A stretch of 64,000 bases of DNA. Origin: an uncultured Oscillospiraceae bacterium (GTDB taxonomy: Bacteria; Bacillota; Clostridia; Oscillospirales; Oscillospiraceae). The notes under the pieces are model-generated. The model searched no databases, had not been told where the DNA came from, and was given only the letters and a program-made list of their open reading frames with translations. The stretch is taken from positions 1 to 64,000 of the forward strand of contig CAJOIC010000007.1 in the NCBI GenBank assembly GCA_905234625.1, written 5' to 3'. Positions within the stretch are counted from its first letter, which is position 1. Every line of letters starts with the position of its first letter. The position numbers were made by a program, and so were the translations under genes. Below are positions 51,925 to 63,304 of the stretch, piece after piece.

Positions 51925-52989
51925 TCAGTTTTGGCGGCGAAAGCGGGGGGCGTCGCCCCGGCTGACCTCCACCTCGTACCCCACGGAGCGGATGCGGTTC
52001 TGCATGCAGACCCGGCACTCCGCCGCCTCGTCCCCGGTGCAGATCTTCCCGTCGTACAGGAGGTATTTCCCCCGGACGCCGGCGGGGGACAGGTTCGGCA
52101 TGACCACATTGGCCCCCGCCAGGATGCCCTTCTCCCGGCCCCGGGGGTCGATGGTGCCCAGGGCGGTGGTGGCGGGCAGGAGGACCTGGGGGAACATGAG
52201 CCGCAGGATGCCCAGAAGAAACAGGGTCAGCTCCGCCGTTCCCGCAGGTTTGTCCCGGAAGGGGGTGTCCTTATGGGGGATGAAGGGCCCGATGCCGATC
52301 ATGTCCGGCCGGAGCTCCCGGAGGAAATAAAGGTCCGTGATGAGGTGGTCCGTGGTCTGATACGGCGCCTGGACCATCATGCCCGCCCCCACCTGATAGC
52401 CGATGTCCTTCAGGTCATACAGGCATCGGACGCGGTTATCCCAGGACAGCTCCTTCGGGTGGAGAAGGGCATAATGGGCCGGGTCCGCCGTCTCGTGCCG
52501 CAAAAGATAGCGGTCCGCTCCGGCGTCGAACCAGGCCTGATAGCTCTCCCGGCTCCGCTCCCCGACGGACAGGGTCACGGCGCAGTCCGGATGGGCGGAC
52601 TTGACGGCCGATACGATGCGGCATAGGTCCCCGTCGGTGAAGCGCATGTCCTCGCCCCCCTGGAGGACGAAGGTTCGGAAGCCCAGGGCATAGCCCTGCT
52701 CGCAGCAGGCAAGGATATCCTCCTCCGTCAGCCGGTAGCGCTCGCAGTTTCTGTTGCTCCGGCGGATACCGCAGTACAGGCAGTCGTTCCGGCAGTAGTT
52801 CGTAAATTCGATGAGGCCCCGCAGATAGACGGAATTCCCGAAGTTCTCCCGCTGGCGGACCCGGGCCTTTTCAAAGAGATAGTCCGCGGTCTCCCCGTCC
52901 CGCCCGTCGATGAGCTCCCGCAGCGGCTCCCGCTCCAGGGTCCCGGCTTCGAACAGGGCGTCCACGGCGGCTCTGGCGTTCCCGTCCAT
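51925..52989 (-). CDS. hydE: [FeFe]-hydrogenase maturase HydE (radical SAM)
   Basis: EFTNYCRNDCLYCGIRRSNRNCERYRLTEEDIL CxxxCxxC; second Cys motif CRVCMQNR. Confidence 0.93.
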   Translation of the reverse strand: MDGNARAAVDALFEAGTLEREPLRELIDGRDGETADYLFEKARVRQRENFGNSVYLRGLIEFTNYCRNDCLYCGIRRSNRNCERYRLTEEDILACCEQGYALGFRTFVLQGGEDMRFTDGDLCRIVSAVKSAHPDCAVTLSVGERSRESYQAWFDAGADRYLLRHETADPAHYALLHPKELSWDNRVRCLYDLKDIGYQVGAGMMVQAPYQTTDHLITDLYFLRELRPDMIGIGPFIPHKDTPFRDKPAGTAELTLFLLGILRLMFPQVLLPATTALGTIDPRGREKGILAGANVVMPNLSPAGVRGKYLLYDGKICTGDEAAECRVCMQNRIRSVGYEVEVSRGDAPRFRRQN

Positions 52990-52992
52990 TGC

Positions 52993-53247
52993 TCACACCT
53001 TGGAGTAGGCCGTTTTCACCGCAAGCCCGGGCAGCCGCCCCAGCTTCCCCGTCAGGGCGCTGATGGTCTCCCCCGGGGCGTCGATGGCGACGCTGATGAG
53101 GGACACGTTCCGGGCAGGATACGGGATGCCCATGCGTCCGATGATATAGGCGCTGTACTCGTGCAGGAGCGCGTTGAGCTCCAGCACGCTGCCGCTGTCC
53201 TCCACAACGATAGCGATGATGGCAAGGCGCGTTTCCTGTTCTGTCAT
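52993..53247 (-). CDS. TM1266-type iron-only hydrogenase system regulator (ACT-like)
   Basis: LAIIAIVVEDSGSVLELNALLHEYSAYIIGRMGIPYPARNVSLISVAIDAP. Confidence 0.9.
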   Translation of the reverse strand: MTEQETRLAIIAIVVEDSGSVLELNALLHEYSAYIIGRMGIPYPARNVSLISVAIDAPGETISALTGKLGRLPGLAVKTAYSKV

Positions 53248-53248
53248 G

Positions 53249-54463
53249 TCAGTCCTTCCTCCCTGTATCTACCCGGTCCAGGATGCCCTTCACATAGGCG
53301 ATGGTGATGCCGTAGTTCGTCATGGGCACCCCGGCGTCCTTGGCCCGCCGGATGCGCGAGCACACGTATTTGCGGTTGAACATGCAGCCGCCGCATTGGA
53401 TGATGAGATCGTACTGCCCCACATTGTCCGGGAAGTCCGCCCCCGCCGTCACGTCCACCGTAAGGCCCTGCCCGGCTCTCTGCCGGAGCATACGGGGGAT
53501 CTTCACCCGGCCGATGTCCTCGTCCAGAGGCGCGTGGGTACAGCACTCCGCGATGAGGACCCTGGAGCTCTCCGTCAGCCTGTCGATGGCCCGGACGCTG
53601 TCCATGTAGTACCCGATATCCCCCTTGTATCCCGCAAAGAGCACGGAGAAGGAGGTGAGCTTCGTCCCGGCGGGCTTCATAGCGTAAACGGCGTCGAAGA
53701 CCTGGGAGTCCGTCACGATGAGAGCCGGGGGCTCCCGGAGGCTCCCAAGGGCCGCGGGCAGCTCCTCCGGCTGGACGCACAGGGCCAGGCACCGCCGGTC
53801 CAGGCTCTCCCGGATGGTCTGCACCTCGGGCAGGATGAGCCGCCCCTCCGGCGCCTGAGGGTCCTGGGGCATGACCAGAACGACCACGTCCCCCTCCTTC
53901 ACGAGATCCCCCAGGATATACCGCTTTTCCGGCTTCCGGGCCACGGCGGCGATCATGGCCTCCCGGAGGGCGTCGATCCCCTCCCGGGTGAGGGCGCTGA
54001 CCGTCACGGGAGCAAGCCCCGTCTCAGCCTCCACCCGCGCCGCCAGGGCACGGTTCTCCTCCGGAGGACGCCGGTCTGACTGGGTGCATACGGCGATCAC
54101 CGGCGTAGCCACGTCCTTAAAAAACGCCAGCCAGCTCTTCTCCTCCGTCCAGTCCCCTTCTCCGAAGAGGACGACGGCCAGGTCCGCGGACTCCGCGGCC
54201 TTCCGGGAGGCGGCGATGCGCAGCTTCCCCACCTCGCCCGCGTCGTCAAAGCCCGCCGTATCCAGCAGGACGCATGGCCCGATGCCGTGGATCTCCATGG
54301 TCTTCTTCACCACGTCCGTGGTGGTTCCCGCCTCGGGGGACACGATGGAGACGGGCTGGTCCGCCAGGGCGTTTATGAGGGAGGATTTCCCCGCGTTCAT
54401 GCGCCCGAAAAAGCCAATATGGGTCCGGTTCGCCACCGGGGTCCGGCTCAGGGTCTTGTCCAT
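53249..54463 (-). CDS. hydF: [FeFe]-hydrogenase maturation GTPase HydF
   Basis: RTHIGFFGRMNAGKSSLINALADQPVSIVSPEAGTTTDVV; C-terminal AECCTHAPL...CGGCMFNR cluster Cys; internal ATG 54463. Confidence 0.95.
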   Translation of the reverse strand: MDKTLSRTPVANRTHIGFFGRMNAGKSSLINALADQPVSIVSPEAGTTTDVVKKTMEIHGIGPCVLLDTAGFDDAGEVGKLRIAASRKAAESADLAVVLFGEGDWTEEKSWLAFFKDVATPVIAVCTQSDRRPPEENRALAARVEAETGLAPVTVSALTREGIDALREAMIAAVARKPEKRYILGDLVKEGDVVVLVMPQDPQAPEGRLILPEVQTIRESLDRRCLALCVQPEELPAALGSLREPPALIVTDSQVFDAVYAMKPAGTKLTSFSVLFAGYKGDIGYYMDSVRAIDRLTESSRVLIAECCTHAPLDEDIGRVKIPRMLRQRAGQGLTVDVTAGADFPDNVGQYDLIIQCGGCMFNRKYVCSRIRRAKDAGVPMTNYGITIAYVKGILDRVDTGRKD

Positions 54464-55269
54464 GGTCCGTTTTCTCCTTTCTCCAGGATCTCCAGCGGCA
54501 GTACCGCCGCGTATTCCTTCCCGTTCAGGCGCTCCCGCCGGACGGCGATGTCCACCCCGAACAGGGCCCGCATATGCTCCTCGGTGAGGATGTGCTCCGT
54601 CCGTCCGAAGAGATGCATCCCGTTCCCGAAGAGCAAAAGCGCCTTGTCCGACACCCGCAGGGCGTGGTCGGGGTAGTGGGTGTTCAGGATCACGGTGAGC
54701 CGCCGGTCCCGGCACAGCCGTGCGATGAGGTCCAGCACCACCAGCTGGTTCCGGAAATCCAGGCCGGACTCCGGCTCGTCCAGGACGAGATACTCCGGCT
54801 CCGCCGCCAGGGCCCGGGCGATCAGCACCAGCTGCAGCTCTCCGCCGCTGAGGTGAGCGCAGCTCCGGCCCCTGAGACGGCTGATCCCCGCCAGCTCCAT
54901 GGCTTCGGCCGCGATTTCCCGATCTCTCGCCCCGGGCATGGAGAAGTCCCCGAGATAGGGGCTCCGGCCCAGGAGGACCATGTCCTCCGCCAGATAGGAG
55001 AAGGCGGGCTTTCGCGCCTGGGGCACGTACGCCACACGCTGCCACAGCTCCCGGCCCCGAAAGTCCCGGAGCTCCCGGCCGTCGATCACCGTGCTCCCCC
55101 GCTCCCAGGGCAGAAAGCCCAGAAGACACTTGATGAGGGTGGTCTTTCCCACGCCGTTGGGGCCCAGGATGGCCACGGTCTCCCCGGTCTCCGCGGAGAA
55201 GCTCACGTCCCGGAGGATGGGCTCGTTCTTCCCGTAGGCGAAGGTCCCCGCCCGTACTTCGATGCTCAT
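54448..55269 (-). CDS. FecE/BtuD-type ABC transporter ATPase
   Basis: AILGPNGVGKTTLIKCLLGFL, LSGGELQLVLIARALAAEPEYLVLDEP. Confidence 0.94.
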   Translation of the reverse strand: MSIEVRAGTFAYGKNEPILRDVSFSAETGETVAILGPNGVGKTTLIKCLLGFLPWERGSTVIDGRELRDFRGRELWQRVAYVPQARKPAFSYLAEDMVLLGRSPYLGDFSMPGARDREIAAEAMELAGISRLRGRSCAHLSGGELQLVLIARALAAEPEYLVLDEPESGLDFRNQLVVLDLIARLCRDRRLTVILNTHYPDHALRVSDKALLLFGNGMHLFGRTEHILTEEHMRALFGVDIAVRRERLNGKEYAAVLPLEILEKGENGPWTRP

Positions 55270-56270
55270 TCGCTTAGCCCTCCCGTCTTCCGCAGCAGCA
55301 GGATGAACACCGGCGCGCCGATGACCGCCGTCAGGATGGACACGGGGATCTCCGCGGTGTTCACGCACCGGGCCAGGGTATCCACCGCCAGCATGAACAG
55401 CGCGCCGAACAGAACGGAGGCCGGGACCACGTAGCGGTTGTCGTTACCGAAGAGCATCCGGGCGATATGGGGGATGAGGAGCCCCACCCAGCCGATGACG
55501 CCGCAGACGGACACCACCGACGCCGTGGTCATGGCCGCCGCCGCGATGACAAGGGCCCGCACCAGCCGCAGATCCACGCCCATGGCCCTGGCCTCATCCT
55601 CCGACAGGGAAAGGGCGTTGAGCCGAAACCGCAGAAGGAAGATGAGCCCCGTGCCCGCAGCGATCAGAGGCAGGGCCAGCAGCATGGACGCCCGGGTCAC
55701 CCCGGAGAACCGGCCCATGAGCCAGAAGGTGATGACGGGCAGCACATCCTGTGGGTCCGCGATATATTTTATGAGGGACACCAGGGCGGAAAACAGGGAG
55801 CTTATCACCAGGCCCGCCAGGATGACCATAAGCATGGAGGGATCCCGGCCTCCCACGCCCCGGGTGACGGCGAACACCAGAAGCACCGCCGCCACGCCGA
55901 AGACCAGCGCGAGGGCCTGCACCTGGAAGGCTCCGCCCCCCAGGAGGATGCCCAGAGCCGCGCCGAAGGAGGCGCCGTTGGCGACGCCCAGGGTGTCCGG
56001 CGTGGCAAGAGGATTGGCAAACAGGCTCTGGAACGCCGCCCCCGAGGCAGCGAGGCCCGCCCCCGCCGCCAGGGCCATGATGACGCGGGGGATGCGGATG
56101 TTATAGATCGTGGTGTGGACATTGTCCGTCCCCCGCTCCACGAACAGCTCCCGCAGCACACGGCCAGGCTCGATGCGGAACTGGCCCATGCACAGCGCCG
56201 CCAGGGAGAACGCCAGGATCAGCGCCGCCGTCACGGCCATCCAAATATGAAATTTCCTGCGCTGATCCAT
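55266..56270 (-). CDS. FecCD/BtuC-type ABC transporter permease
   Basis: RIPRVIMALAAGAGLAASGAAFQSLFANPLATPDTLGVANGASFGAALGILLGG. Confidence 0.95.
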   Translation of the reverse strand: MDQRRKFHIWMAVTAALILAFSLAALCMGQFRIEPGRVLRELFVERGTDNVHTTIYNIRIPRVIMALAAGAGLAASGAAFQSLFANPLATPDTLGVANGASFGAALGILLGGGAFQVQALALVFGVAAVLLVFAVTRGVGGRDPSMLMVILAGLVISSLFSALVSLIKYIADPQDVLPVITFWLMGRFSGVTRASMLLALPLIAAGTGLIFLLRFRLNALSLSEDEARAMGVDLRLVRALVIAAAAMTTASVVSVCGVIGWVGLLIPHIARMLFGNDNRYVVPASVLFGALFMLAVDTLARCVNTAEIPVSILTAVIGAPVFILLLRKTGGLSE

Positions 56271-56324
56271 GGTCTTCCTCCCCTCCGCGGCGCAAATTCA
56301 ACTATGCTTTTCCAGGCTTTTCAA

Positions 56325-56386
56325 AGCCCGGTCAACTGAGCGGTATCGTTACCGGGCTGAGCTGTATAGGCTACTGCCAGCCCGGT
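56325..56386. repeat. Three alternating inverted copies of agcccggt/accgggct between SBP and permease genes
   Basis: agcccggt 56325-56332, accgggct 56351-56358, agcccggt 56379-56386. Confidence 0.7.
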
Positions 56387-56433
56387 GCGAGTTTAAAAGC
56401 TCTTTTGCATACTTTTCTTCCAAGAAAAGTACG

Positions 56434-57714
56434 TTACTTCCAAGATCCCGCAGCGCTGGAGGGATGATACATGGCCTCGATCTGCTCGTCGGTGAGCTCG
56501 ACGCCGTAGAGGTCGTTATAGTACGCCCGGACATCCGCCGCGAGATCGAACTCGGGGAACAGCGCGGGATAGAGGACCACCGCGAGCCACTCCAGGGTCA
56601 TGGGTGTGTCCACGCCGGGGGTATAGGTGCGGTAGGTGCCGAGGGGCATCTTGTACACCTGACCGTTCGCCACAGCGGAGACAGTGCTCCAGTCGTCGTC
56701 CCCCACGGCGTTGTTATAGAGGTCCTCCGGCTGGGTCTGGGTGAAGTTCGTGATAACGATGACATCCGGGTCCCACTCATAGACCTGCTCCATGGTGATG
56801 ACGGCGTTCTTATTGTCCGCCTCCACCTCGTTGGCCGCGTTCAGGGCCCCGGCGGCATCGCACCACCACTGGCCGAAGAAGCTGGAGCCGGAGGTGACCA
56901 TGGTATTCTCGTCATACTGGAACAGGAACAGCACGTTCTGCCGGTCCGCGTCCTCCATATCCGCCGTCCGGGACTGGATGAGGTCATACATGGAGGTGCT
57001 GAAATCGTGGACCCTCTCCCGGAGCTCCGAGGCGTCGGCGGAGGGATATATCTGGCTGAGCAGATCGATCCAGTTATCGTAGGTCACGATGCAGTCATAC
57101 TGCCACTTCGTGGGAGAGACGGCCACGGACGTGAGCCCCGCGTTATCCAGCTTCTCGCCCAGGGCGGCGTTGCCCGCGTTATAGTACACGATCTGAGGCT
57201 CCAGGGCCATCAGCGCCTCCACGTTCACGTCGTCCCCGCTCATGATGTCGGTGTTCACATCCAGCACCTCCGGATACAGCTCCGACAGGATGCCGTTTTT
57301 GGCGGCGTTCATGCTGGCGGGCTCCATGGCAATGATGGTCTCCGCCGAGCCCAGGAACACCGTCAGCACCGAGGGCAGTGGCAGGATGTCCAGGATCACC
57401 ACCCGGTCAGGGTTCGTGGGCACCGTCACCGTGCGGTCCGCGTGGTCCGTGACGGTCACGGTCCCGGCCTCCCCGGCGGGCTCCTCCGGAGCCTCCGGCT
57501 CAGCATCAGGCTCTTCCGCAGCCGCAGGCTCTTCGGCGGCCGGCTCTTCCGCAGCCGCAGGCTCTTCGACGGCCGGCTCTTCCACGACGGCCGGCTCTTC
57601 CGCCGCGGGGCTTCCCGCGGAGGAACCGCAGGCCGCCAGGGCGAAGAGCATGCACAGGCACAGGCACAGCGCCGTGAGCCGCGAGAGCAGATGGATGTTT
57701 GCAGTTGTTTTCAT
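56434..57714 (-). CDS. FecB/BtuF-like ABC transporter substrate-binding lipoprotein
   Basis: lipobox LAAC, EEPA-rich linker, VTVTDHADRTVTVPTNPDRVVILD periplasmic-binding domain; internal ATG 57714. Confidence 0.9.
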   Translation of the reverse strand: MKTTANIHLLSRLTALCLCLCMLFALAACGSSAGSPAAEEPAVVEEPAVEEPAAAEEPAAEEPAAAEEPDAEPEAPEEPAGEAGTVTVTDHADRTVTVPTNPDRVVILDILPLPSVLTVFLGSAETIIAMEPASMNAAKNGILSELYPEVLDVNTDIMSGDDVNVEALMALEPQIVYYNAGNAALGEKLDNAGLTSVAVSPTKWQYDCIVTYDNWIDLLSQIYPSADASELRERVHDFSTSMYDLIQSRTADMEDADRQNVLFLFQYDENTMVTSGSSFFGQWWCDAAGALNAANEVEADNKNAVITMEQVYEWDPDVIVITNFTQTQPEDLYNNAVGDDDWSTVSAVANGQVYKMPLGTYRTYTPGVDTPMTLEWLAVVLYPALFPEFDLAADVRAYYNDLYGVELTDEQIEAMYHPSSAAGSWK

Positions 57715-57778
57715 TTTATTCTTTCCTTTCTTTCCCCTCCAGCGCCATGGGGCGGTCTCGGGGTTAGTTAACATAATA

Positions 57779-58933
57779 TTACTCCAGCAAACCCCGGACG
57801 GAAAAGTCCGGGCCGCAGAACACCGGCAGGGACGCCCGGTAGATGCGCCCCGAATAGGCCTCGTGAGGGAAGTCGACGAACCGCGTGCCGCCGTCCCTTT
57901 TCAGCGCCACCCGGTACAGCGGATCCGCCACGACGACGGCGGCCCCCCGCATGGCGGCTATGAGCTCCGCCTCGGGGACGCCCTCGTCCTCGTCCGGCCA
58001 GAAGGGATACGCAGGGGCGCCGCCCAGCAGGTTCACGGCATTTGCCAGGGACCTGGCGAAGATCTCCTCCCCGATCACCAGGACGCCTCCCGCCGGGACC
58101 GTCCAGCGCCCGGTATTGCCGAAGCTCCCCCAGGCCGTCCGGTCCTTCCCGTCGATCATGGTATCGGCCACGGCCCGCAGGACGGCTCCCGTCTGCTCCG
58201 GGCCGATGGGCAGGCCCTCCACGATGGGGATACCGCCCTTTTTCTTCATGTGCCGGGCGGGCCTTCGCCCCGCGGAGGACACCACCAGGTTCACCTTCGC
58301 CCGGTAGGCCTTTTCCATGGTCTCAAAGGTGTCTCCCATAGCCATGCAACAGTTAACATAATATCCAGCATCCTCCAGGGCAGAGCGGAGCTTTCCCACG
58401 TTGCCGTTCACGGAGAAGTCCAGGGGCGTGACGCCCACCAGGTTCACGCTGCCGGGCCGGGCGTTCCGAGTCTCCCCGGGGTCGGCGAAGCGGTCCAGCC
58501 ACGCGGTGAGGGCCAGGCCCACGCCGCTGACATAGGACTTGAGGCCGTCCGTAGCCACCGGGAGCACGGGGACGCCGCACTCCTTCTCGATGAGGTACGC
58601 CACGCCCCGGTAGTCGAAGGCGATGATATGGGGGATGGAGGCGCCGCATAGGGTGATGAAGCGAGGAGCCAGATCCCTCGCCGCCTGGACCACGTCCCGG
58701 ATGAGGACGTCGTCGTCCCCCATGACGGCGGTGATCTCGTCCAGGCCGGAGACGTACATAAGGCTGTCCGTATCGAACCAGCGGGGCTCGTCGTGGGTGG
58801 AATACGTGGAGTTGCAGCCCGAGGGGTCGTGGAGCACGGACATGCCCCCCAGCTCATACAGCGCCGAGCACACCCCGGACACATCCGCGGTATATGTGGA
58901 TGTAAACACATGCGTTTGGTAATCGAAAGCCAT
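57779..58933 (-). CDS. Nitrogenase-superfamily component 1 protein (NifK-like)
   Basis: GMSVLHDPSGCNSTY, ITAVMGDDDVLIRDVVQAARDLAPRFITLCGASIPHIIAFD; adjacent NifD- and NifH-like genes. Confidence 0.85.
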   Translation of the reverse strand: MAFDYQTHVFTSTYTADVSGVCSALYELGGMSVLHDPSGCNSTYSTHDEPRWFDTDSLMYVSGLDEITAVMGDDDVLIRDVVQAARDLAPRFITLCGASIPHIIAFDYRGVAYLIEKECGVPVLPVATDGLKSYVSGVGLALTAWLDRFADPGETRNARPGSVNLVGVTPLDFSVNGNVGKLRSALEDAGYYVNCCMAMGDTFETMEKAYRAKVNLVVSSAGRRPARHMKKKGGIPIVEGLPIGPEQTGAVLRAVADTMIDGKDRTAWGSFGNTGRWTVPAGGVLVIGEEIFARSLANAVNLLGGAPAYPFWPDEDEGVPEAELIAAMRGAAVVVADPLYRVALKRDGGTRFVDFPHEAYSGRIYRASLPVFCGPDFSVRGLLE

Positions 58934-59027
58934 TTTTTCTTTTCCTCCCGGGGGTCGCTTGGGGGGCATCCGTCTTCACGCCCGCTGTTGGCAGACGCGC
59001 ATCACAGTTCTTTCGGTCCCTTTTCTT

Positions 59028-60329
59028 TCATGAGAAGGAACATCCGCATCCCCAGCCTTTGATCTGTACCAGCTCCCGCATGGGCTTTTCCGCCTCGCAG
59101 GCCTCCCGCATGAGCTCCATGAGCCGCCGGATGCCCCGGTAGCCGTACATGCCGTCGTTCTCCACGATGTTCACGAAGAAATTCGTGTCCTTGAAATAGG
59201 CGCTTTTCTGGCCTACGGCCAGGAGCTTCCCGGGATAGCCCCGCTCCATGCGCCGGATGTTCCAGCCAAGGGACTGGTAGATCTTCAGCTCCGGCGCGCG
59301 GCGCTGAAGGGCCTCGAACACCTCCCGGGCCTCGGTGAACACGTCCACGAACACGGACTCCACGTTGAAGCCGCGGTCCATAAGGTACAGCGCCAGCTCC
59401 AGGGGCCGGTCCACCGCAGTATAGTCGATAGACACCGGCGTGTCTTCCAGGAGCGCCAGGGTGTCCGCCGCGGCCTTTTCCGTCAGCCGCCGCTCCTCCG
59501 CGATCTCCTCCGGGCTCAGCCCGGGGATGCCGAAGAAGTCCGCCGCCGCGCGCATATCCTCGTCGATGGCGTCATAGTCGTACCCCGGCCGCATGGGCAG
59601 CCACTCCTGCCCCAGACGGAGCTTCATATCCTTCGCCGCCCGGACCGCGGTATTGTGGAAGGTGAAGTTCACCTCCGACGCCGCCATGCGCAGGAATTCA
59701 TCGTAGGTCCGGCAGGTGTTCAGGTCCATGACCGTGATCCCCGCCTGCCGCAGCATCACCGTCAGGTCGCAGTATTCGCCGTACCGAAAGCAGTTGCCCA
59801 CGAGGTTCGCCTGGTTTTTCACCTTCCGGCCGGGCTTCAGAAGCCGATGGATCTGCCGCCAGAGGGAGGGGATCGCCGGGGCCGTGCGGCGCATGATGGG
59901 GTCCATATAGCAGTCGATGAAATCGATATCGGGGTACTTCTCCCGCAGGACCCGGTACACCCGCTGGTAGTTCACCGCCAGGAAGTGGTGGATGCAGCTC
60001 GTATAGATGAGCATGGCCCTGGGCCGGACGGGAAGCTCCGCTATGATCCGCTCGGTCCCCCGCTGGAGGGCCTCCTCCATGTCCCCCTCCAGGATATTGT
60101 CCTCCCCGACGGTGATGGTGGAGAGCCGGTCCATGGCCCCCATCTCCGCCGTGGTCAGGACCACGCCCCGGAGGCAGCTGGTGGGACAGACGAAGATCTC
60201 ATGTGCCTCCGGCACCAGGGTGCCGATGTGCACGATGTTCCACACGCCCCGCACCGGGGAGGCGTAGCTGAGGCCCAGGTCGGCGTTATATTCATATTCC
60301 AGTTCTCCGATGGGCCGAAACTCAAGCAT
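59028..60329 (-). CDS. Nitrogenase-superfamily component 1 protein (NifD-like)
   Basis: PVRGVWNIVHIGTLVPEAHEIFVCPTSCLRGVVLTTAEM, AMLIYTSCIHHFLAVNYQRVY; overlaps NifH-like gene by 8 bp. Confidence 0.85.
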   Translation of the reverse strand: MLEFRPIGELEYEYNADLGLSYASPVRGVWNIVHIGTLVPEAHEIFVCPTSCLRGVVLTTAEMGAMDRLSTITVGEDNILEGDMEEALQRGTERIIAELPVRPRAMLIYTSCIHHFLAVNYQRVYRVLREKYPDIDFIDCYMDPIMRRTAPAIPSLWRQIHRLLKPGRKVKNQANLVGNCFRYGEYCDLTVMLRQAGITVMDLNTCRTYDEFLRMAASEVNFTFHNTAVRAAKDMKLRLGQEWLPMRPGYDYDAIDEDMRAAADFFGIPGLSPEEIAEERRLTEKAAADTLALLEDTPVSIDYTAVDRPLELALYLMDRGFNVESVFVDVFTEAREVFEALQRRAPELKIYQSLGWNIRRMERGYPGKLLAVGQKSAYFKDTNFFVNIVENDGMYGYRGIRRLMELMREACEAEKPMRELVQIKGWGCGCSFS

Positions 60330-61083
60330 GGTCTTCCCCCAGCGCCAGCATGCGCTCCGCCAGACGCCGTATCTCCGCCGCGTAAGCGCAGTCGGGATAG
60401 GCCTCCATGACCCCCCGGTCCCCGTCCTGGGCGTCGGAGATATGGTCGTCCCGGGGCAGGTCCGCCAGGATCTCCGTGCTCAGGTCCTCCGCCAGAGTCT
60501 GTACCTTTTTCAGCTCGTCCGGCACGTTCCGGCGGTTCAGGATAAGGCCGCCCAGGGCGGCGTACCCCCGCTTGCGGAAGTTCTCCACCGCCATGGCGAT
60601 ATTCGCCGCGGCGTAGATGGACATATTCTCCCCGGAGGTCACGATGAACACCCTGTCGGCATAGCCCTCCCGGATGGGCATGGCAAAGCCGCCGCACACC
60701 ACGTCCCCCAGCACGTCGTACAGCACCAGGTCCGGCTTCACGATATCGAAGACGTCCCGCTCGTCCAGGGCCTCGAAGGCCGCGGCGATGCCCCGTCCCG
60801 CGCAGCCGAGCCCCGGGGTGGGACCTCCCGCCTCGGCGCAGACGATGCCCTTATACCCGGTGACGATGAGATCGTCCAGGGTGGCGGCATCCCGCTTCTC
60901 GCGCAGCACGTCCAGCATGGTGGGGATGCGCTGCCCGCCGTGGAGGTACAGGGTGGAATCCGCCTTGGGATCGCAGCCCACCTGCATGACCTTCAGGCCC
61001 AGCTCCGTGAACGCGCAGGACAGCGCCGAGCAGGTGGTGGACTTGCCGATGCCGCCCTTTCCGTAGACCGCAAAACGATACAT
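60322..61083 (-). CDS. Nitrogenase iron protein-like ATPase (NifH-like)
   Basis: FAVYGKGGIGKSTTCSALSCAF, VGCDPKADST, EAGGPTPGLGCAGRGI, DVLGDVVCGGFAMPIREGYAD; SD AAGGAG. Confidence 0.93.
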   Translation of the reverse strand: MYRFAVYGKGGIGKSTTCSALSCAFTELGLKVMQVGCDPKADSTLYLHGGQRIPTMLDVLREKRDAATLDDLIVTGYKGIVCAEAGGPTPGLGCAGRGIAAAFEALDERDVFDIVKPDLVLYDVLGDVVCGGFAMPIREGYADRVFIVTSGENMSIYAAANIAMAVENFRKRGYAALGGLILNRRNVPDELKKVQTLAEDLSTEILADLPRDDHISDAQDGDRGVMEAYPDCAYAAEIRRLAERMLALGEDHA

Positions 61084-61218
61084 ACCGTTCTCCTTCATAA
61101 AACAAAACTCCGCCGGAACGCATCCGACAGAGCAGCAAACGCGAAGGCCCGGGCAGGGGCTTTCGCGGTATTTCCGATCATTCCTCTTTCCGCTCAGAAG
61201 CACTTTGCGGTCAGATGC
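61084..61218 (-). promoter_or_regulatory. Structured 5' leader with P1-like stem versus intrinsic terminator (candidate riboswitch/attenuator)
   Basis: P1 strands 61218-61210 (GCATCTGAC) and 61128-61120 (GTCGGATGC); hairpin 61167-61140; terminator 61132-61099 ending TTTTGTTTT. Confidence 0.7.
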
Positions 61219-61224
61219 ACATAC

Positions 61225-61253
61225 ATATTATCAAGAATGTCCCGTCCTGTCAA
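61225..61253 (-). promoter_or_regulatory. Consensus promoter of nitrogenase-like operon
   Basis: minus strand TTGACA-17 nt-TAATAT. Confidence 0.85.
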
Positions 61254-61277: not shown

Positions 61278-61307
61278 TTGACAGGGGCGCTTGGGCTGCG
61301 CTATAAT
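61278..61307 (+). promoter_or_regulatory. Consensus promoter of secreted protein gene
   Basis: TTGACA-18 nt-TATAAT. Confidence 0.85.
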
Positions 61308-61339: not shown

Positions 61340-63304
61340 ATGAAAAAGCTTTTCTGCATCCTGCTTTGTCTCGCCCTGGCGCTGAGCCTCGGCATGACCG
61401 CCATGGCCTCCGGCGAGGCCAGCGGCAGCACCGCCGCCGAACCCACCGTCACCGACGCCGCGGCGAAGGATCCCGACGCCGCCATCACCCTGGACGGCGT
61501 GGCCATGGGCCAGGTCCAGCGCCTCGTGACCACGGCCTCCGTCGCCTATGACGGCGGCGCTTCCGACGAGATCCACTCCACCCTGGCGGGCGTCTCCGTG
61601 AAGGACGGCGTGACCTCCATCATCTCCGACGAGGAGAATACCGTGGGCGTCGCCATCCGCAACACCGGCGCCTTCGTCCTGGGCGGCTCCTCCGATCCCG
61701 CTCTTGTGGCGGAGAAGATCAACTTCTCCTATATCACCAGCATCTACTACCCCGACTGGGAGGCCTTCTGCGGCGCTCTGGGCTATGACGCCTCCCTCAG
61801 TCTGGAGCAGATCGCCCAGTCCATCGTGGACAGCGGCAGCTCCGCCAGCTACACGAACCTGGGTCTGGCCGCCCCCGAGACCGTGGTCCTGAGCGACTAT
61901 GTCATCGATCTGGCCGGCACAGGCACCAACGATATGGGCGGCTTCGGCGCGGCGGTCTATGTGTCCGACAACGCCGTGGCGGAGCTCAACAACTTCCGCG
62001 TCATCACGCGCGGTCCCGGCCGCGGCACCCTGTTCACCCGCTTCGCCGCTGACGTCACGGTAAACGGCTCCACCTTCTACGGCGTGTCCGATCCGAACCT
62101 CGTCTCCATGCAGGGCTGCCCTCCGGGGCTGTTTTTGGAGGGCAAGGTCCGCGCCACCAACGCCGTGGGCGCGTCCCATGTCACCTATAACGGCTCCGTC
62201 GTCATCTCCCAGGGCTGGGGCGCTCTTTCCACCGACAGCGACGACCTCTATACCGATTGGTCGAACCCCACGGAGCTGCACGTGAACGACAGCTACATCG
62301 CCGTCCTCACCAGCGGCTACGGCGCCTACTCTGACGGCGGCGCCCGGGACTACTTTGTCGGCTCCGCCATCGACGTGCCCGACTATGCCGCTGTGGAGAC
62401 CGGCGGCGGCATCGTGTCCTACGACGCCTGCGTCATCAATTCCGGCGAGTACGGCGTCATGACTCACTCCGGCAACAGCTCCGGCGAGATCACCTTCACC
62501 GACACCGAGCTGCATGTGGGCGAGGCCGGCGTCATGCTCCGCGATACCGCCAACACCGTCACCTTCGACAACTGCACCATCGCCTTCGACGGTACCTATA
62601 CCATCGATCCCGCCCTGGCCGCCCGGTACGGCGTGGATATCGCCGACGTGGACGCTCAGTTCGGCACCGTCAACGGCGTGGACCCCGATTACGTCCATAC
62701 CGTTTTCAGCAGCAGCACCTCCAACTGCATCGTGAAGCTCATCCATAACTCCGACGGCGGCTCCGGCACCGAGAGCTCCGGCAAAGCCCCCACCGTCACC
62801 ATCAAGAACTCCGACATGGCCGGCAACATCCTGAACACCGCCGCCATGGAGGGCGACGAATACACCGCCACCAGCGGCCCCGCCGGGGTAGGCGTCCGCA
62901 CCGCCCGCAGCCTGGAGGTCACCCTGGACGCCTCCACCGTCACCGGCGCCATCTCTCTGGGCTCCGATGACTGGGAGGTCACCCACTTCGCCTCCGGCGA
63001 CACCGCCTCCCAGGAGATCGGCTACGCCGAGGCCACCGTTCTCGGCATGTACCGGGAGGGCGACGAGGGCCTGCGTCTTGCGCTGACGAACGGCTCCGTC
63101 TGGGTCGTCACCGAGGATTCTTACCTCACCGAGCTCACCATTGACGCCACCTCCGCCATCGCGGGGGCGGGCGGCGCGTCTGTAACCATGACGGTGGACG
63201 GCGCGGCGACGCCCATCGTCCCGGGTGCCTATTCCGGCGAGATCGTGATCTCCCTGGCCCCCGGCGCTTCGGGAGCCTCCGGCGCTTCCGGCGGTATGGC
63301 GTAA
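61340..63304 (+). CDS. Secreted, predicted right-handed beta-helix repeat protein, unknown function
   Basis: signal peptide MKKLFCILLCLALALSLGMTAMASG; repeated short V-T-x-N-S / ITFTDTELHVGEAGV-like beta-helix coils; Gly/Ser tail GASGASGASGGMA. Confidence 0.75.
   Translation: MKKLFCILLCLALALSLGMTAMASGEASGSTAAEPTVTDAAAKDPDAAITLDGVAMGQVQRLVTTASVAYDGGASDEIHSTLAGVSVKDGVTSIISDEENTVGVAIRNTGAFVLGGSSDPALVAEKINFSYITSIYYPDWEAFCGALGYDASLSLEQIAQSIVDSGSSASYTNLGLAAPETVVLSDYVIDLAGTGTNDMGGFGAAVYVSDNAVAELNNFRVITRGPGRGTLFTRFAADVTVNGSTFYGVSDPNLVSMQGCPPGLFLEGKVRATNAVGASHVTYNGSVVISQGWGALSTDSDDLYTDWSNPTELHVNDSYIAVLTSGYGAYSDGGARDYFVGSAIDVPDYAAVETGGGIVSYDACVINSGEYGVMTHSGNSSGEITFTDTELHVGEAGVMLRDTANTVTFDNCTIAFDGTYTIDPALAARYGVDIADVDAQFGTVNGVDPDYVHTVFSSSTSNCIVKLIHNSDGGSGTESSGKAPTVTIKNSDMAGNILNTAAMEGDEYTATSGPAGVGVRTARSLEVTLDASTVTGAISLGSDDWEVTHFASGDTASQEIGYAEATVLGMYREGDEGLRLALTNGSVWVVTEDSYLTELTIDATSAIAGAGGASVTMTVDGAATPIVPGAYSGEIVISLAPGASGASGASGGMA

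Follow-up and report, generated by a model that had tools for sequence, protein, structure and literature searches.

What controls a nitrogenase-like operon that also carries genes for [FeFe]-hydrogenase maturation? In the window, meaning the whole 64,000-nt stretch of DNA that was analyzed, positions 51925-61083 of the minus strand hold an operon in which nitrogenase-like genes are combined with those for a FecCD-type transporter and for HydE/HydF/TM1266, and relatives of this operon were found in many rumen and gut Bacillota. The first gene encodes a nifH-like reductase (60322..61083, ATG at 61083; PF00142), which is followed on the same strand by two nitrogenase component 1-like subunits (59028..60329 and 57779..58969; both PF00148), a substrate-binding protein (56434..57714, with 57714 as the likely start; PF01497), a FecCD-type permease (55266..56270; PF01032), an ABC transporter ATPase (54448..55275), HydF (53249..54490; TIGR03918), a TM1266-family protein (52993..53247; TIGR03959, a relative of PDB 2NZC) and HydE (51925..52989; TIGR03956). 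On the opposite strand, a perfect divergent promoter, TTGACA-18-TATAAT (61278-61307), lies ahead of a gene (61340-63304) for a 654-aa protein that has no match in Pfam or NCBIfam.

The operon is preceded by a 135-nt leader on the minus strand, which the initial annotation had read as a candidate riboswitch or attenuator controlling the nitrogenase-like genes. The sigma-70-type promoter TTGACA-17-TAATAT (61225..61253) is present as described there, as are the Shine-Dalgarno sequence AAGGAG of the nifH-like gene (61090..61095) and an intrinsic terminator (CTCTGTCGGA/TCCGGCGGAG plus TTTTGTTTT, 61099..61132), whose hairpin spans 61132-61108 and is followed by TTTTGTTTT to 61099. By folding, the terminator (−18.1 kcal/mol, z −4.1) is far stronger than expected by chance and was matched by none of 200 shuffles, while the region containing the pairing designated P1 gave a z of −2.5 (1 of 200 shuffles). 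P1 had been proposed to join GCATCTGAC (61210..61218) to GTCGGATGC (61120..61128), and because the latter strand lies within the 5′ arm and loop of the terminator, the two structures are mutually exclusive, as had been claimed. An 11-bp hairpin with one mismatch, located between these elements (61140..61167), does exist, with 10 pairs and one mismatch, but it is not conserved in homologs, which rules it out as part of an aptamer. The short CCGC...GCGG stem is also real and has a larger role than it was given, as it forms the center of a conserved hairpin, CUGA-[CCGC]-AAAG-UGCUU-CUGA-[GCGG]-AAAG (61186..61214), that was identified by three covariance models (R1-R3), by covariation counts and by its occurrence, together with the terminator, in the unconstrained minimum-energy fold of the leader. 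Its stem, P2, pairs 61210-61207 with 61193-61190, its lower loop is formed by 61214-61211 and 61189-61186, and its upper loop by 61206-61203 and 61197-61194, such that the 5′ strand of P1, the antiterminator of nif-type leaders, overlaps the lower loop. It is this hairpin, and neither P1 nor the 11-bp hairpin, that defines the class.

The conserved element is 29 nt long and consists of a 3-4 bp P2 stem between two identical CUGA/AAAG internal loops, with the class consensus CUGA-[P2]-AAAG-n(4-8)-CUGA-[P2′]-AAAG. Eleven further leaders of the orthologous operon contain it, and upstream of genes related to the nifH-like gene the motif reads AUCCGA-CYGC-AAAG-n-UUCUGA-GCRG-GAAGAG, followed by a terminator and the start codon. 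P2 was paired in 95.5% of cells (77.6% when shuffled) in 22 sequences, in 93.3% (65.1%) in 81 hits and in 98.4% (73.2%) in 27 hits from genomes absent from all models, a set whose covariation score of 0.785 (0.267 shuffled) was reached by none of 500 shuffles, with the proviso that alignments A3-A5 follow the structure of the model and so lean towards it. The diversity of the pairs is independent of that fitting: C-G, G-C, U-A and A-U pairs all occur at inner P2 positions. The loop pairs exchange as well (AAAG/CUGA to AAGG/CCGA). The homologous leaders from which a covariance model was built covary and contain terminators, and a conserved, structured and covarying core in 5′ leaders is a hallmark of riboswitches. 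A DNA operator is disfavored as an explanation because P2 changes by compensation around invariant loops and because the −10 boxes are located upstream of the element.

Several divergent forms of the element were also observed. Tandem cores, one with CCGA/AAGG loops flanking P2 on both sides, precede TM1266-hydE in one locus (L095, 1451-1543). Six TM1266 leaders (L129, L143, L149, L150, L152, and L153) contain an additional domain of different appearance (e.g., CUGAAUGCACGAGGG..UCCCGAGUGAGAAGGCG), which in three of them (L129, L143, and L150) follows a normal core. This domain is possibly a tandem or variant aptamer. A variant of the form CCUGA-[P2]-GAAA..UUGA-[P2′]-AAAG occurs on contigs with more distant nifH-like genes (L078, L056, and L071), as does a similar one in L088 (CUGACAACGAAA..UUGAGUUGAAAG), at distances upstream of the nifH-like gene of 177 nt in L088, 318 nt in L078 and more than 2 kb in L056 and L071. 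Weak matches (E about 0.8) some 95 nt before a nifH-like gene in two Lentisphaeria MAGs (L061 and L074) suggest that the element or a relative of it extends to another phylum.

The association of the element with particular genes was not anticipated from the nitrogenase-like operon. When R1, the first covariance model, built from leaders of nifH-like relatives, was searched across the order, the same hairpin was unexpectedly found upstream of TM1266, HydE and HydG genes. The R2 search of 243 genomes of the class, some of which had supplied R2 training sequences, gave 43 matches at E < 0.01 besides the window genome. By reference-protein comparison, 33 of these, including one 0.8 kb upstream of TM1266-hydE (in G657), are at genes for TM1266, HydG, HydE, HydG-like proteins, AspA or SsuA/SsuC-type transporters, and the best 29 matches all have a hyd, HydG-like or transporter context. 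An independent test was provided by the R3 search of 348 genomes of the phylum, a sample outside the training set, in which 24 of the 29 loci examined had an H-cluster- or transporter-type context, newly including HydF, an ECF S component and FecCD adjoining TM1266. Among TM1266 leaders collected regardless of the RNA, 15 of 30 loci, several of which were also in the models, had a match at E < 0.01. The element therefore occurs across Bacillota, nearly always directly 5′ of TM1266, hydE, hydG, hydF, aspA and nifH-like operons and of a few transporters, and such a steady link to the genes of one pathway is also typical of riboswitches. The inclusion of AspA is in keeping with the link between ammonia-lyases and H-cluster DTMA synthesis made in one report (PMC11736057). 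An attenuator-like leader does precede the nitrogenase-like operon, as was initially proposed, but it is not specific to that operon, since the majority of copies are found ahead of genes for [FeFe]-hydrogenase maturation.

The element does not correspond to an established class. The window leader has no match in Rfam 15, even at a permissive E of up to 10, which bears out the earlier impression, and no match above the gathering threshold was found at the element in the window or at 18 other loci; the L10 leader (RF00557) gave a sub-threshold match at one locus (30.5 bits versus 44). It is very improbable that the leader belongs to a known riboswitch class in a form too diverged to be detected, or that it is a leader-peptide or T-box attenuator: diverged members can escape Rfam models, yet the other members of the class also lack a credible match at the element. 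A short ORF preceded by a ribosome site is present in just one of 49 leaders, on which grounds a leader-peptide attenuator was rejected, and the T-box was rejected because its motif strings occur in none of the 49 and Rfam likewise finds no T-box. Searches of open-access PMC papers found no description of a riboswitch or leader for hydE/hydG/TM1266 or for nitrogenase-like operons, and a term search of two candidate-RNA surveys found no mention of hydrogenase genes (PMC8632094 and PMC11109978).

The element resembles terminator/antiterminator riboswitches in its structured, covarying 5′ leader core, its alternative pairing with the terminator, its association with one pathway and its occasional copies at ribosome sites. 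It matches no established class of that kind, and its core is a hairpin of about 30 nt in which the two internal loops are identical. A very small core that overlaps the expression platform is also a feature of preQ1-I and other minimal riboswitches, but their conserved nucleotides and genes are unlike those found here. The NiCo (czcD) riboswitch, a multi-helix junction class with a reported Fe(II) response, offers a conceivable likeness in its metal-related biology, and its architecture and the lack of an Rfam match separate it from the element. The element is thus a real, widespread and previously unclassified regulatory RNA, whose core, covariation, gene association, terminator and alternative pairing have been established computationally, and the window leader is its nif-like variant.

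How the core is connected to the terminator differs between the two main types of leader. A terminator separates the core from the gene in almost every TM1266, hydE and nifH leader. In hydrogenase-type leaders, the core 3′ strand (P2′ + AAAGG) is complementary to the 5′ arm of its own terminator (−11.9 versus −9.3 kcal/mol when permuted, 0 of 2000 permutations), unlike the 5′ strand. Nif-type leaders show the opposite, with pairing to their own terminator by the 5′ strand (p = 0.001, permutation) but not by the 3′ strand. The automatic choice of terminator was wrong in some leaders (e.g., L004); when terminators were curated for a second nif-type test, own P1 duplexes had −10.2 versus −7.5 kcal/mol when permuted (0 of 20,000 permutations). 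P1 also covaries over 12 homologous leaders, with both sides changed in six of nine pairs and a covariation score reached by none of 500 shuffles, so the pairing originally proposed for the window is supported. One strand of the core therefore serves as the antiterminator in both designs. On sequence and energy evidence, the platform is mutually exclusive with an alternative fold, as in riboswitches. An ordinary constitutive terminator or mRNA stabilizer that senses nothing would accommodate the strength of the window terminator, and ligand sensing is itself putative, but such an element would not be expected to have conserved unpaired CUGA and AAAG, strong covariation, a specific regulon and complementarity to its own terminator, and the likelihood of this explanation is judged to be minimal.

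The energetics of the window leader are consistent with a switch, bearing in mind that duplex energies leave out tertiary contacts and kinetics. Before the 3′ arm of the terminator is made, P1 (−39.1 kcal/mol) is preferred over the core (−31.8 kcal/mol), and once the leader is complete its unconstrained minimum (−45.4 kcal/mol) consists of precisely the core and the terminator. The initial annotation had a ligand stabilizing P1 and causing antitermination. This polarity is probably reversed, because P1 uses lower-loop nucleotides of the core, and a stabilized core would oppose P1 and favor the terminator. A form of the original proposal, in which ligand-stabilized P1, together with P2, blocks the terminator and turns the window operon on, such that nif-type polarity would be opposite to that of the hydrogenase type, is unlikely but deserves weight, given that P1 covaries, that P1 and P2 are compatible (−36.6 kcal/mol before the terminator is complete) and that nif-type leaders often lose the lower-loop U, which is replaced by C (a C.A mismatch) in about half of them as if P1 outweighed the lower loop. 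Against it, the nucleotides that P1 takes are conserved across the class, and in hydrogenase-type leaders P2′ is itself within the antiterminator, making core and antiterminator mutually exclusive there.

The preferred reading is instead that core formation turns the gene off throughout. In the proposed sequence of events, the pseudo-symmetric hairpin, with its two CUGA/AAAG loops around a covarying 3-4 bp stem, has one strand that can alternatively pair with the terminator 5′ arm as antiterminator (P1 in the window). Stabilization of the core, for which a small metabolite or a metal tied to H-cluster assembly is the likeliest agent, would abolish the antiterminator, allow the terminator to form and shut off the operon. 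A different outlet is predicted where the core lies at the start of the gene. The core of most hydG leaders directly adjoins AAAGAAAGGA, and with a distance of about 50 nt from the beginning of the core to the start codon a terminator would not fit in; a formed core would there occlude the ribosome-binding site and block translation.

The same probably holds for a probable second copy within the operon, CUAA-[CCCC]-GAGA..CUGGA-[GGGG]-AAAG (57730..57767, minus strand), which together with AAAGAAAGGA spans 57767-57724, in the gap that separates the second component 1-like gene from the gene for the substrate-binding protein, immediately 5′ of AAAGGA and ATG 57714. From its sequence, the region 57767-57714 is probably a second RNA copy that overlaps the ribosome site of the latter gene, and the start listed for its ORF, 57774, probably lies too far 5′, with ATG 57714 the likelier one. 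R3 did not detect this copy in the window itself, and it was recognized from elements at the equivalent position in six homologs (L011, L016, L018, L019, L014, and L015), two of which reached E 0.0012 or better with R3, and from exchanged P2 pairs in homologs (CCUC/GAGG, CCUU/AAGG, and CUUC/GAAG). The hydrogenase-type, nif-type and hydG arrangements all fit a single logic, in which a formed core means that the gene is off. That the element represents a new cis-regulatory RNA class for H-cluster maturation genes and the nitrogenase-like operon, with core formation, aided by a putative ligand, leading to the OFF state, is considered probable; ligand binding and OFF polarity are what we infer from these structures and contexts.

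What stabilizes the core is a further question. The idea that it is a riboswitch sensing a product or precursor of H-cluster assembly, through a pseudo-two-fold hairpin aptamer with two equivalent sites, and common to [FeFe]-hydrogenase maturation and the nitrogenase-like system, is slightly favored. The main rival idea, which is rather doubtful, is that the repeated CUGA/AAAG loops are bound by a protein, either TM1266, a putative regulator of the hydrogenase system that would then autoregulate, or another RNA-binding protein, with no small-molecule aptamer involved. TM1266 is the most frequent downstream gene (27 of 81 hits), 24 of the 26 tested genomes that carry the RNA also encode the protein, and a short, pseudo-symmetric RNA would suit an oligomeric protein; the protein-bound, autoregulatory L10 leader is similarly a short structured leader of the kind that an operon product might bind. 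On the other hand, TM1266 lacks a recognized nucleic-acid-binding domain and its only PDB match is the uncharacterized 2NZC, and the absence of a TM1266 match from two draft genomes (G445, 97% complete, and G617, 93%) speaks weakly against it as the sole partner. For a small-molecule riboswitch, hints to the ligand may come from the substrates of transporters that share the leader. SsuA/SsuC-type ABC transporter, ECF S component and FecCD genes share the leader or the operon in a number of loci (L174, L181, and L197; L173, L177, L211, L215, and L232; and L219); for the ECF S component, neither NCBIfam nor the PDB holds a relative from which a substrate could be named.

If this interpretation is true, H-cluster biosynthesis would, as far as the open literature searched shows, gain its first described control at the RNA level, and the signal that governs hydrogenase maturation would become testable. 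The transporters that have this leader could show which compounds the pathway takes up, and the common leader ties the nitrogenase-like operon to H-cluster chemistry. The element is widespread among Bacillota of the gut and rumen, habitats in which hydrogen turnover is important.
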